From NCBI GenBank assembly GCA_944323785.1, contig CALUTU010000008.1, positions 41,212 through 105,211 of the forward strand: 64,000 nt of DNA. Reading direction: 5' to 3'. Of the stretch, positions 23,219 through 64,000 are shown piece after piece. Under the pieces are notes generated by a model that was given only the letters and a program-made list of their open reading frames with translations, was not told the DNA's origin and did not search any database. Numbering within the stretch: the stretch's first letter is position 1; each line of letters starts with the position of its first letter. A program made the position numbers and the translations under genes. The stretch is from an uncultured Bacteroidales bacterium (GTDB lineage: Bacteria > Bacteroidota > Bacteroidia > Bacteroidales > UBA932).

Positions 23219-23287
23219 ATCTCAAAAATATATCCGGAATGGAGAGATGCCGCTGATGTGCGGTGGAAGAGCAAAGCACTCGAAAAG

Positions 23288-23365
23288 TCCCTACGACGGT
23301 ACTGACCGTATCAGGTTCGACGGGTGTAATCTCAGCCTCCGGGCAACGCCTCGTGAGGCACCCCT
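23288..23365 (-). promoter_or_regulatory. TPP riboswitch (THI element)
   Basis: Read on the minus strand, the region has the thiamine pyrophosphate aptamer consensus: a GGGGTGCC opening (23365 downward), GGCTGAGATTACACCC with the invariant CTGAGA at 23330-23335, GAACCTGAT at about 23310-23318, and the closing GTAGGGAC near 23288. It sits between the operon promoter and thiE and should turn off the thiE-thiC-thi4 operon when TPP is high. No clean terminator hairpin was found between aptamer and start, so control may be at translation. Confidence 0.93.
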
Positions 23366-23378
23366 CTTTTCCTGCCTG

Positions 23379-55014: not shown

Positions 55015-56034
55015 GTGGCAAGGAAATTTGAAATACGTAACAGCACGGCGGAGTTCTTGACCTTTGTGTCTGATGGAAAGGAGGACGGGATACAGGTGCT
55101 GTATAAGGATGAAACTATTTGGGCGACTCAAAAAGCTATGGCTGAGCTGTTTGAGGTCGGAGTTCCGGCTGTCAGCAAGCATTTGAAGAATATCTTTGAG
55201 AGTGGAGAACTCGATAGAACTGTGACTGTTTCCAAAATGGAAACAGTCGTGAACAGAGGTTTCCGCGGGGAGTCAAAAGAGTATGTTGAATTCTATAATC
55301 TTGACGCAGTCATAGCAGTGGGTTATCGTATCAATTCTGTACGGGCTACTCAGTTTCGTCAATGGTGTACGTATGTACTCCGGCAGTTTGCTATCAGAGG
55401 ATATGTGATAGACCGAAAGCGTATGGAGAACGGTTCGTTTATCGGAGAAGATTATTTCGAGCATCTGCTGGCTGAAATCCGTGAGATTCGACTGAGTGAA
55501 AGGCGTTTTTATCAAAAACTGACAGATATATACGCTACGGCCATAGATTACAATAGAAGTGCACCAATGACACGGCTGTTTTATCAGAAGGTGCAGAATA
55601 AGATGCACTATGCCGTGCACGGGCATACGGCAGCGGAACTTATTGTCAAGCGTGCTGATGCTTCTAAAGAGCATATGGGACTGACTACATGGGAAAATGC
55701 ACCAGATGGTAAAATAGTAAAACCGGATGTCAGTGTTGCGAAGAATTATTTGAAAGGAGAGGAGCTGGAGGATATGAGCCGACTTGTGAATGCCGTGCTG
55801 GATATGGCTGAACGTATGGCAAATCGTCATGTTCCGATGACGATGGAGGACTGGGCAAAGCGCATAGATATGATTCTTGAAGCCGGTGGAGATGCTGTTT
55901 TAGATAATGCAGGGCATATTTCCGCTGAATTTGCAAAGCAGTTTGCAGAAGCGGAGTTTGAGAAATACCGTGTTGTGCAGGATAAGAACTTTACTTCCGA
56001 CTTTGACAGATTTCTCAGTGAGGTTAAAGTTTAA
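55015..56034 (+). CDS. RhuM family protein
   Basis: A 339-residue member of the RhuM (virulence-associated) family, starting with GTG. The typical opening YKDETIWATQKAMAELFEV, the VSKHLKNIFESGEL helix-turn-helix-like part, FRQWCTYVLRQFAIRGYVIDRKR and the VKPDVSVAKNYL segment are present. Function is not established; such genes are found on islands and near mobile or defence genes. The gene is visibly more AT-rich than its neighbours and stands alone, suggesting transfer. It overlaps the convergent oxyR gene by 11 bases. Confidence 0.85.
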   Translation: MARKFEIRNSTAEFLTFVSDGKEDGIQVLYKDETIWATQKAMAELFEVGVPAVSKHLKNIFESGELDRTVTVSKMETVVNRGFRGESKEYVEFYNLDAVIAVGYRINSVRATQFRQWCTYVLRQFAIRGYVIDRKRMENGSFIGEDYFEHLLAEIREIRLSERRFYQKLTDIYATAIDYNRSAPMTRLFYQKVQNKMHYAVHGHTAAELIVKRADASKEHMGLTTWENAPDGKIVKPDVSVAKNYLKGEELEDMSRLVNAVLDMAERMANRHVPMTMEDWAKRIDMILEAGGDAVLDNAGHISAEFAKQFAEAEFEKYRVVQDKNFTSDFDRFLSEVKV

Positions 56035-61030: not shown

Positions 61031-62011
61031 TTATTGCAGGTGCTCAGGTAGTGGCTGTTTCTGTCGTAGCCGACCTGATTTGGGCTTCAATCCTTTACGG
61101 TTGCAATCCTGGCCGTTCTGCACCGGACTGTTCTGGCCTGGAGCGCTTTGGCCGGGATGGAAGACTTGTCCGAGCAGACTGATGCTGGTGTGGGTGAGGC
61201 GTGCCAGCTGCTTGATGCCCAGGCCGTATTGTTTCCGGAGGATGTCTGCCAGCTGATACTTCTCGTCTATGCTGAGCGCATCGGGAGAAGACTTGCTGAA
61301 TATTTCGCTGCAGAGGTTCGTGACGGTGGAGGCCATCTCGCTGTCAGTGTAGCGGGCCCGCCGGAGGATTCCGGATGTCAGCTCCATCTCCATACTGTCG
61401 TTGCGCGAGAGGAAGTAGAGCATCCTGACAGGGCTGTGGAATATCTCCTCGACGGCGCGGTAGTCAACGTAGCATTTAGGGCAGATGAGTCCGTCGGCCG
61501 TTACGGTGTAGTGTCCCGGCAGCTGTCCGCGGGTACGGAACAGTTTCTGCTGCCGCCGCTTGCTCATGTGCGCGATATCTGTGACCGACCGATTGACTGT
61601 CAGCGTGTTGCCGTCGTTGAAATACAGAGGACCGGAACTCCATCGGTAATGGGTCGGGAGAACGGCCAGTCCGGCTGCGGGAGGGTTGCGCAAGACGTAG
61701 GCAATCGCCCGTTTAAGGTACTCGGTATCGTCAATTTCTTTCATGCAGATGTCCGCGCTGCTCATGTCCGCCAGGGTGAAAAGTCGCTTCCGGTAGGCCT
61801 TGATGAACTCGCCGCAATCCTCTTCAGTGCCGTGGGCTATGAAATGGACGTGATTGTCCATCAGACAAAAAGCATGCATGGATATGTCTCTGTCAGCCAT
61901 GCATACCGGAATGCTGTTCATCCCGAAAATGTAATCGGCGTCAGTCTTGAAAATGATTTCCTTTTCCAGTCCGGCTGTGCAGATGTGCCGGAAATGTTTC
62001 TCCTGCTCCAT
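61031..62011 (-). CDS. RAYT (REP-associated, Y1/HUH) transposase
   Basis: A 326-residue transposase of the Y1_Tnp superfamily. The metal-binding HUH pair is H54 and H56 in MDNHVHF, and Y73 in AYRKR, about 17 residues later, is the candidate nucleophile. Beyond the catalytic domain (about 1-140) is a C-terminal extension of about 185 residues with a CPKC pair and a helix-turn-helix-like segment (DILRKQYGLGIKQLARLT), ending in a Lys/Arg/Gln-rich tail. Such single-copy transposases mobilise short palindromic elements in trans; copies B and C of a repeat flank it. Confidence 0.85.
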   Translation of the reverse strand: MEQEKHFRHICTAGLEKEIIFKTDADYIFGMNSIPVCMADRDISMHAFCLMDNHVHFIAHGTEEDCGEFIKAYRKRLFTLADMSSADICMKEIDDTEYLKRAIAYVLRNPPAAGLAVLPTHYRWSSGPLYFNDGNTLTVNRSVTDIAHMSKRRQQKLFRTRGQLPGHYTVTADGLICPKCYVDYRAVEEIFHSPVRMLYFLSRNDSMEMELTSGILRRARYTDSEMASTVTNLCSEIFSKSSPDALSIDEKYQLADILRKQYGLGIKQLARLTHTSISLLGQVFHPGQSAPGQNSPVQNGQDCNRKGLKPKSGRLRQKQPLPEHLQ

Positions 62012-62242: not shown

Positions 62243-63116
62243 GTAATTCCTTAGAGGGTTCGGGCGAGGGGCAGGGATTGAGCATGATGGTGTTGACGGT
62301 GCGGCCGCAGGAGGGGCCTTCGCGGCGGGCTGAGAAGAAGCCGGGGTGGGTGTAGGTGTCGATGCCGGAGATGAGGATGTTGGCGTCGTGGACACCGGCC
62401 CGGAGGAGGGTCAGACGGACGGCCTGGGGGAGGTCGATGTGGAGGCCGCCGGACATGGAGCCGGGGATACGCGGGCCGCGGTCGGTGATGAGGCGGATTG
62501 TGTGGCTGTCTATTGGTGAAGAGTCTGTGCTGCCGGTGATTTCCAGGGGGAAGTTGTGAACAAGGCAGGATGAATGTGAGCACGTGACAGCTCCCGTTTT
62601 CTCAGAATAGTCAGCACTATGCTTTTTCGAAGGATACCATGTCTCCGGAAATCCGGCGCCGAGGAAGGCTTCGGCGACTTCCGGACCGACCTGGAAGCTT
62701 TCCGGGCCGATGCCGGGACCGATTACCGCCAGAATGTCGGCAGCGCGTGTGCCGTACTTGGAGGCCATCACAGCCAGGGTCTTCGCTGCGATTTTCAGCA
62801 CCGTACCCTTCCAGCCGGAATGTACTGCCGCAACGACCCGCCGTACCGGATCGTACATCAGCACCGGTATGCAGTCAGCCGTCCGGGCCCCTATCGCCAC
62901 ACCCGGCACGTCAGTCACCAGCGCGTCATAGCCCTCCAGCTCTTCCCGAGTAGTACCTGCCGAAGTCACCACGGCCACCCGGTCTCCGTGCACCTGATGC
63001 GCCTGCACCACCCTCATCGGCAGCACGGCGTCCCTCAGCGGGGAAAATGCCGTAACTTCAGGGGCTATGTCATATTTCAGCAGGCCGTCGGAACCGCTCG
63101 GGAAAATCTGTCTCAT
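62238..63116 (-). CDS. pgeF: PgeF/YfiH family protein with internal insertion
   Basis: Peptidoglycan editing factor/multicopper-type family (DUF152), 292 residues; relatives remove wrongly inserted amino acids from peptidoglycan precursors or act as purine nucleoside phosphorylases. Core motifs are present: QAHQVHGDRV, ARTADCIPVLMYD with the metal cysteine, VHSGWKGT and FSARREG. Two oddities: an extra segment of about 55 residues at about 177-235, Ser/His/Cys-rich, between AGFPETW and LHIDLPQAVRL, and a C-terminal tail whose last codon and stop lie in element C. A TTG at 63131 opens a longer frame; the ATG at 63116 is used. Confidence 0.82.
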   Translation of the reverse strand: MRQIFPSGSDGLLKYDIAPEVTAFSPLRDAVLPMRVVQAHQVHGDRVAVVTSAGTTREELEGYDALVTDVPGVAIGARTADCIPVLMYDPVRRVVAAVHSGWKGTVLKIAAKTLAVMASKYGTRAADILAVIGPGIGPESFQVGPEVAEAFLGAGFPETWYPSKKHSADYSEKTGAVTCSHSSCLVHNFPLEITGSTDSSPIDSHTIRLITDRGPRIPGSMSGGLHIDLPQAVRLTLLRAGVHDANILISGIDTYTHPGFFSARREGPSCGRTVNTIMLNPCPSPEPSKELP

Positions 63117-63138
63117 CTCAGGCAAATACAATTTTCAG

Positions 63139-63146
63139 CAAAGTTA
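63139..63146 (-). promoter_or_regulatory. -7 box TAACTTTG for pgeF
   Basis: Perfect TAnnTTTG match 22 bases before the ATG at 63116. Confidence 0.5.
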
Positions 63147-63170
63147 GGATACTTCTTTGAAAAATTTTTC

Positions 63171-63178
63171 TAAATTTG
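63171..63178 (+). promoter_or_regulatory. -7 box TAAATTTG for the metX leader
   Basis: Perfect TAnnTTTG match 8 bases before the ATG of the leader-peptide frame at 63187, so transcripts should begin almost at that codon. Confidence 0.6.
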
Positions 63179-63186
63179 TCTCCGCA

Positions 63187-63267
63187 ATGAGAAAGCACTC
63201 CAACATATCCATGATGTCCATGCGAATGCATCGCTCTTCGATGCATGGCTTTCTCTTTTGCCGGTAA
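63187..63267 (+). CDS. Methionine-rich leader peptide upstream of metX
   Basis: A 26-codon frame with methionine at positions 1, 9, 10, 12, 14 and 19 (core SMMSMRMH), followed by TAA. It follows a -7 box by 8 bases and lies 125 bases before metX, whose product makes the methionine precursor. The density of Met codons, the position and the folding of the frame (a perfect 8-bp long-range stem and an inner 8-bp hairpin) fit a ribosome-stalling attenuator that reads methionyl-tRNA supply. This function is inferred. Confidence 0.65.
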   Translation: MRKHSNISMMSMRMHRSSMHGFLFCR

Positions 63268-63291
63268 GTCAAGCGGGATGCGGGCTCCGGC
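63189..63291 (+). promoter_or_regulatory. Candidate attenuator structures in the metX leader
   Basis: Perfect pairings: 63189-63196 with 63248-63255 (8 bp, followed by TTTTG), enclosing 63226-63233 with 63239-63246 (8 bp, 5-base loop), then 63260-63264 with 63287-63291 (5 bp). The Met codons lie inside the first two. The rest of the gap to 63392 holds small palindromes (63318-63329, 63339-63346) but no clear U-tailed terminator and no SAM riboswitch consensus that I recognise. Confidence 0.5.
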
Positions 63292-63392
63292 GTATTAATC
63301 CGAAAACATATCAGGTTGACTCCACAGTCCCGAATCTGCCCCGGGGCTGAGAATGGATTTGACGTCAGGGCATCAATGGACATCGACAATCA

Positions 63393-64000
63393 ATGATTCA
63401 GGCGGAATATATCCACGAAGAACCGTTCCGGTGCGAGGCCGGAGGTACAATCGACAATCTCAGAATAGTCTATCACATATCAATGCCGGGCGGCGGGCCC
63501 CGCAAGGTCATCTGGATCTGTCATGCGCTGACAGCCAATTCGGACCCGGAGGAATGGTGGCCGGAGATGGTGGGTCCGGGCCGGCTCATAGACACGGACC
63601 GCTACACGGTGGTCTGCGCCAATATGCTCTGCTCGGCCTACGGCTCCTCCGGTCCGGCGCATGGCAGGTTCCTGGATTTCCCGAAGGTGACTGTCAGGGA
63701 CATCGTCCGCACCGAGGCTCTCCTGCGCAGGCATCTGGGCATAGGCCGGATAGACCTGCTGATAGGCAGTTCCATCGGCGGTTTCCAGGCTCTGGAATGG
63801 ACGGTGATGGAGCCGGATGTAATCGCGCGGGCGGCTATCATGGCCTGCGGCCCCCGGGTTACGCCCTGGCTGACAGCATCCAACGAGGCCCAGAGGATGG
63901 CCATCGAGGCCGATCCTACGTTTCGCGAGTGCCGCACCCTGAAAGGCGGAGCGGCAGGACTCCGTACGGCCAGGGCCATAGCCCTCATCTCGTACCGCAG
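63393..64000 (+). CDS. metX: Homoserine O-acetyltransferase, 3'-partial
   Basis: Activates homoserine with acetyl-CoA at the start of the transsulfuration or direct sulfhydrylation route to methionine. The window ends inside the gene after 202 codons. The alpha/beta-hydrolase features are clear: VIWICHALTANSDPEEWW, the CANMLCSAYGSSGP segment and the nucleophile elbow GSSIGGFQALEW with S127. It begins after a long leader with a Met-rich small frame. Confidence 0.92.
   Translation, partial: MIQAEYIHEEPFRCEAGGTIDNLRIVYHISMPGGGPRKVIWICHALTANSDPEEWWPEMVGPGRLIDTDRYTVVCANMLCSAYGSSGPAHGRFLDFPKVTVRDIVRTEALLRRHLGIGRIDLLIGSSIGGFQALEWTVMEPDVIARAAIMACGPRVTPWLTASNEAQRMAIEADPTFRECRTLKGGAAGLRTARAIALISYR

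Follow-up and report, generated by a model that had tools for sequence, protein, structure and literature searches.

A methionine-codon leader upstream of metX and metY in one Bacteroidales family, a candidate ribosome-mediated attenuator

The 64,000-nt stretch of DNA analysed here (the window) ends within metX, and in front of this gene lies a short methionine-rich reading frame whose counterparts precede metX or metY in many members of one Bacteroidales family. We read this leader as a ribosome-mediated attenuator, in which methionine would be sensed through the Met codons of the leader to control metX (metX or metY in the relatives), and from the sequence comparison we give this reading slightly better than even chances. 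The comparison supports the frame, the Met codons, the hairpin, the U-rich tail and the link to metX and metY, the first genes of methionine synthesis; the transcription start site, the stalling of the ribosome, termination at the core hairpin and the direction of the response are what we infer. Methionine genes are generally controlled by SAM riboswitches, T-boxes or repressors, and to our knowledge no natural Met-codon attenuator is known. Among the literature matches listed, a Met-codon attenuator was not described, and the string "MRMHR" appeared as a mass-spectrometry term.

The consensus of the Bacteroidota -7 promoter element is TAnnTTTG, and a box of this type, TAAATTTG, was read from the sequence at 63171-63178 on the forward strand, which also carries the leader features and metX described below. 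Eight bases past the box, at 63187, stands the ATG of the leader frame (63187-63267), comprising 26 codons and a TAA stop and translated as MRKHSNISMMSMRMHRSSMHGFLFCR; its six Met codons are codons 1, 9, 10, 12, 14 and 19, five of them after the start and four within codons 9-14. A gap of 125 bases, beginning at 63268, separates the frame from the metX ATG at 63393. Within the frame, CATATC (63204-63209), 17 nt past the leader start, recurs in the leaders of relatives, and the core ATGCGAATGCATCGC (63220-63234), as delimited by family alignments and codon counts, encodes Met-Arg-Met-His-Arg. The inner hairpin (63226-63246) consists of the 5′ arm ATGCATCG (63226-63233), the loop CTCTT and the 3′ arm CGATGCAT (63239-63246), forming a perfect 8-bp stem whose 5′ arm contains the invariant Met codon. 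An outer stem, likewise 8 bp and perfect, pairs GAGAAAGC (63189-63196) with GCTTTCTC (63248-63255) and is followed by TTTT, and the T-rich tract 3′ of the hairpin, GGCTTTCTCTTTT, extends over 63247-63259. The original prediction, made from this sequence alone, had listed the box, the 8-base spacing, the 26-codon frame with six methionines, the 125-base gap and the nested perfect 8-bp stems with their four T residues; all agree with the sequence base for base. Past the T-rich tract, RNAalifold on 15 related metX leaders together with folding weakly predicts a second hairpin region, GCCGG...CCGGC (63260-63291), and a similar one occurs at metX loci of related genera, with no T run behind it.

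The 5′ part of metX (63393-64000) was assigned as homoserine O-acetyltransferase by NCBIfam TIGR01392 (E 9e-49), and its 166 bits stay under the cut-off of 500, as contig and window stop together within the gene and only 202 residues are present. The divergent upstream neighbour is pgeF (TIGR00726, 143.6 bits; cut-off 141.15). Elsewhere in the window, the sole Rfam match is a TPP riboswitch at 23271-23375 on the reverse strand (66.1 bits; gathering score 54.3); a RhuM family protein is encoded at 55015-56034 on the forward strand (PF13310, E 9.5e-102), and a reverse-strand frame at 61031-62011 resembles by eye an IS200/REP-associated transposase, with no Pfam match at E 0.001.

Taken on its own, the element of the window hardly exceeds chance. 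The fold predicted for 63185-63392 is unexceptional in energy (z -1.0, with 34 of 200 shuffles equally stable), and the region has one terminator-like site, the inner hairpin, where shuffles give 0.3. Such unremarkable folding would suit a methionine-rich frame that arose by accident; this reading is already contradicted by the recurrence of the leader and its link to metX and metY, and we regard its probability as next to negligible. The case for the attenuator rests on the relatives, where it is strong.

Leaders of one Bacteroidales family follow a shared plan, in which a TAnnTTTG box and a nearby start are followed by a short frame rich in Met codons, and in which the core, AUGCGAAUGCAUCG..GAUGC, is almost invariant. 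In 79 of 80 distinct leaders the box precedes the core by 30-160 nt; the start codon stands 4-31 nt past the box. A covariance model trained on 39 hand-chosen leaders found 85 places in 84 of 249 family genomes, spread over 13 of the 25 genera. All 85 were examined; metY lies downstream of 48, metX of 36 and a contig edge of one, with a core-to-gene distance of 91-418 nt (median 126). E-values on the training leaders are not independent because the model was built on them; the 17 places outside the first set are independent, and every one precedes metX (14) or metY (3). In a further search, a 20-base exact signature, which does not match the window's own variant, was run against one genome per species for 84,980 species and gave 62 matches, 57 of which precede metY (43) or metX (14), while three end within 60 nt and two (L219, L220) lie elsewhere. 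Bacteroidota names are carried by 61 of the 62, the other being titled "uncultured bacterium". The organisms include Bacteroidales bacterium CF, Candidatus Cryptobacteroides faecigallinarum, Candidatus Egerieousia excrementavium and Bacteroidales bacterium UBA932, and from these named members we presume that the leader-bearing family is GTDB's UBA932. In these comparisons the link of the leader to metX or metY is near-exclusive, and what had been proposed for the window, a Met-codon leader with a hairpin before a methionine gene, is supported by the recurrence of box, frame, Met codons and hairpin across the 13 genera.

The first set was obtained with a loose core pattern that matched 99 of the 249 family genomes, part of which is background, as the reversed control matched about 19. 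Among 112 distinct pattern rows (six from the order search), 65 were chosen by hand via box, short frame and neighbour, and the 47 left out mostly had CGG, CGT or CAC spellings and lay in different surroundings. The set of 85 was completed with L082, from a contig edge, and two duplicates, L004 and L108. Across the order, the exact 14-base core occurred in 8 of 295 genomes against 3 in the reversed control, and G000 and G027, two of the eight, belong to the family; of the order matches, L028, L029, L032 and L033 are listed without a box, and L030 and L031 were inspected with their surroundings. At E 0.1 the model reached 33 of 247 order genomes, strongly only in G000 and G027, and at 18 weaker places (L139-L156) no leader frame of the family plan was seen by eye. 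As far as searched, the leader is confined to one Bacteroidales family.

Presence of the leader was also compared with that of metX. In the window's genus (19 genomes), the six genomes with metX are the same six that carry the leader, and metX is present in 82 of the 84 leader-bearing family genomes; conversely, 76 of 158 family genomes with metX gave no model match. In an inspection of 19 such loci by eye, the leader of L256 proved divergent, L254 and L255 showed degenerate remnants without the core hairpin before metX, and several others had a box directly upstream of metX. L254 and L255 stand beside relatives with the full leader (L127, L131) and likely represent leader loss. As a separate observation, the MetY enzymes encoded behind leaders are very poor in methionine (0.68% over 47 loci; metX 1.51% over 35), and the metY genes of L043, L044, L049 and L050 have no Met in 423 counted codons; such MetY could remain translatable during methionine shortage.

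Several counts indicate that the leader is read as codons. Between box and core, stop codons number 5 of 1398 codons in the leader frame and 31 of 1372 and 140 of 1352 in the other two (80 distinct leaders, 79 with a box), and ATG triplets 182 in the leader frame (start codons included) against 6 and 2. Outside start and core, Met makes up 139 of 1270 leader codons (75 leaders), compared with 313 of 31,115 (1.0%) for the genes downstream; seven frames nearby in the window have 53 Met among 2234 codons. These frame-specific counts weigh against an untranslated RNA element, either a small new riboswitch or a site for an RNA-binding protein, in which the frame would be incidental. That alternative could draw on the conservation of the core at the level of spelling, and on the CATA[TC] motif near codon 7, which 52 of 66 distinct leaders carry at +15, +17 or +18 counted from the start codon, partly in different reading frames. 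Besides the frame counts, the position of the starts 4-31 nt from the box speaks against it, as do the Rfam scans, which gave no match for 63100-63450 even at E 10 and nothing except a tRNA at the family loci; we consider it quite unlikely.

The second Met of the core is unchanged in all 81 distinct leaders, and the first is replaced by Lys, Ile or Leu in 10 of the 81. Non-Met replacement had been named beforehand as a sign against a Met-sensing leader, and it was found at the first of these positions and never at the second. The other core residues vary as well, with Gln for Arg2, Arg or Gln for His4 and Leu or Gln for Arg5. This variation speaks against nascent-chain arrest, in which an MRMHR ending would stall the ribosome on methionine, SAM or another ligand. 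It is true that roughly half of the leaders end with the core (a stop immediately follows it in 47 of 81), but many frames continue beyond it. Overall, 76 of 81 leaders have their stop 0-12 nt past the core, and the other five, all of the window's genus, have it 30 nt past. Moreover, spelling is conserved beyond the residues: the second core codon (63223-63225 in the window) is CGA in 78 of 81 distinct leaders, a codon that accounts for 3.2% of the Arg codons in downstream genes. We therefore regard an arrest peptide as unlikely.

Between genera, 23 pairs of leaders contain 28 synonymous and 104 non-synonymous changed codons, with differences of 55, 63 and 79 at the three codon positions, so that these pairs hold no synonymous excess; Met sites were kept in 38 of 46 cases and other residues in 247 of 343. 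The alignment check suggested with the original prediction was passed for the most part, with the exception that variation is not synonymous-only. The prediction had also offered the peptide itself as a possible product. Within the window's genus the frame is indeed nearly unchanged (MRKHSNISMMSMRMHRS[ST]MHGFL[FY]CR), but other genera retain only the plan, the residues outside Met drift, and the length ranges from 7 to over 40 codons, depending on the choice of start, which makes a peptide product highly improbable. Since the peptide drifts outside Met, it would be the codons and the hairpin that matter; the drift agrees better with a leader used for sensing than with one made for its peptide.

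The hairpin explains part of the core spelling. The fourth codon is CAT in 78 of 81 leaders and the last base of the fifth is free; the stem accounts for the CAT, and not for the CGA, which lies outside it. Five inner stem pairs are standard in 274 of 275 cells (55 sequences), and the two outer pairs are broken in 14 and 13 sequences, respectively. The covarying stems foreseen earlier do exist in a few changes, one two-sided (L170) and two G-U, a covariation that 14 of 500 shuffles reach and that is thin, given how little the sequence varies. Another reading takes the core as a repressor's operator in the DNA, with ATGCAT as the palindrome; such a site would be short, highly conserved and promoter-proximal as the core is. 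Yet the distance from core to box varies with leader length while the core stays in frame, and the G-U pairs and the two-sided change fit RNA, and we hold an operator to be very unlikely. A stem of at least 7 bp is found in 54 of 85 leaders and in about 4% of shuffles, and the divergent L256, before metY, has a different hairpin instead, again with a Met codon. As to the nested stems, the inner one proved family-wide; the outer 8-bp stem was rejected as a family feature, since by eye it was seen just in leaders of the window's own genus. The minimum-energy fold had also suggested that leader Met codons pair with the metX start region; this was dropped too, as by eye L008 does not keep it.

Behind the hairpin, a T-rich octamer begins within 0-6 nt at 43 of 74 loci (12.0 expected), the remaining 31 failing this rule, and T frequency is 0.49 at 5-15 nt and 0.21-0.30 from 20 nt onward. 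We read the core hairpin itself as the terminator-like part of the attenuator. A possible if doubtful alternative keeps the same Met-codon leader and the same waiting ribosome and moves the exit: the core hairpin would serve for pausing or timing, and the decision would fall at a downstream terminator, at a Rho site, or in translation or decay of the metX/metY mRNA. The 31 loci without a tail by rule agree with this, as do a second structured region behind the core in several genera and another terminator-like site, partly stronger, at 6 of 74 loci (0.2 expected), with good terminators farther down in L099, L102, L104 and L136. Against it, the core hairpin is universal in the set, whereas no downstream feature common across the genera was found; twelve loci folded with the 5′ arm masked showed, by eye, no common alternative structure and no shared antiterminator.

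The attenuator with termination at the core hairpin would operate as follows. Transcription would start near the leader ATG, so that the ribosome initiates almost at the 5′ end. With ample Met-tRNA, the ribosome would clear the Met codons and exit at the stop in or near the hairpin; once it is gone, the hairpin with its U-rich tail could form, and transcription would end or pause before metX. When methionine is short, the ribosome would wait at Met codons located within the 5′ arm or next to it, and with this arm covered no hairpin would form and metX would be transcribed.

A leader that senses methionine through elongation faces a difficulty, since starvation leaves the cell short of initiator Met-tRNA too, and methionine shortage should also slow initiation at the leader; in the trp model, an untranslated leader terminates (PMC1183508). 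The modest hairpin, the tail lacking by rule at 31 of 74 loci, the other terminator-like site at 6 of 74, the differences in tail and downstream features among genera, the thin covariation, the replaceable first core Met, the unexplained CGA and CATATC and the 76 of 158 metX genomes that gave no model match count against the attenuator as well. With somewhat less than even confidence, we suggest a natural Met-codon attenuator of one Bacteroidales family, with its control codon inside the terminator-like stem and a two-state switch instead of a classical antiterminator, working although the leader start itself needs methionine, perhaps tuned by the almost leaderless start and the rare CGA between the core Mets. 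A leader family of this kind makes it testable how shortages of elongation and initiation are distinguished, and it offers a very specific regulatory mark of methionine synthesis in mostly uncultured Bacteroidales. Leader-like small frames have been noted in B. thetaiotaomicron (PMC7366714), and a text of 2010 states that leader peptides were then known only from Proteobacteria, Actinobacteria and, newly, Firmicutes (PMC2965389).

Among known systems, the broad features of leader-peptide attenuators are present, namely a short frame before a synthesis gene that bears codons for the amino acid made, and an RNA hairpin in which the control codons are included. In attenuators of the trp/his/thr/leu/phe type, codons for the regulated amino acid abound in a short leader frame; the present leader resembles them in its codon-rich frame directly before synthesis genes and in the overlap of hairpin and codons. 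It differs in its amino acid, methionine, in having the control codon within the terminator-like stem and in its distribution, which as far as searched is one Bacteroidales family. The mutually exclusive antiterminator and terminator of the trp-type four-segment arrangement were not seen in the 12 masked loci by eye, and for lack of a shared antiterminator we do not file the leader under that type, even though its proposed action is that of a leader-peptide attenuator. In pyrBI attenuation of E. coli, a ribosome over the terminator hairpin blocks termination, triggered by ribosome-polymerase coupling via UTP; physical covering of the hairpin is likewise proposed here, with waiting at Met codons as the trigger instead. 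Cysteine-codon attenuators of actinobacteria and mycobacteria, reportedly described by Lyubetsky in 2014 (cited in PMC4833913), share the near-leaderless short frame and the sensing of a sulfur amino acid by codons; they use Cys codons in other phyla, whereas the window leader has a single Cys codon and no run. The SAM (S-box) riboswitch RF00162 is absent, by Rfam models, from the window and the family loci scanned, and precedes metX in L017, of another family of the order (1 of 7 non-family metX loci scanned). It occupies the same position before the same target gene as an aptamer that needs no translation, unlike the proposed leader attenuator; the same gene is preceded by the leader in one family and by a SAM riboswitch in L017.
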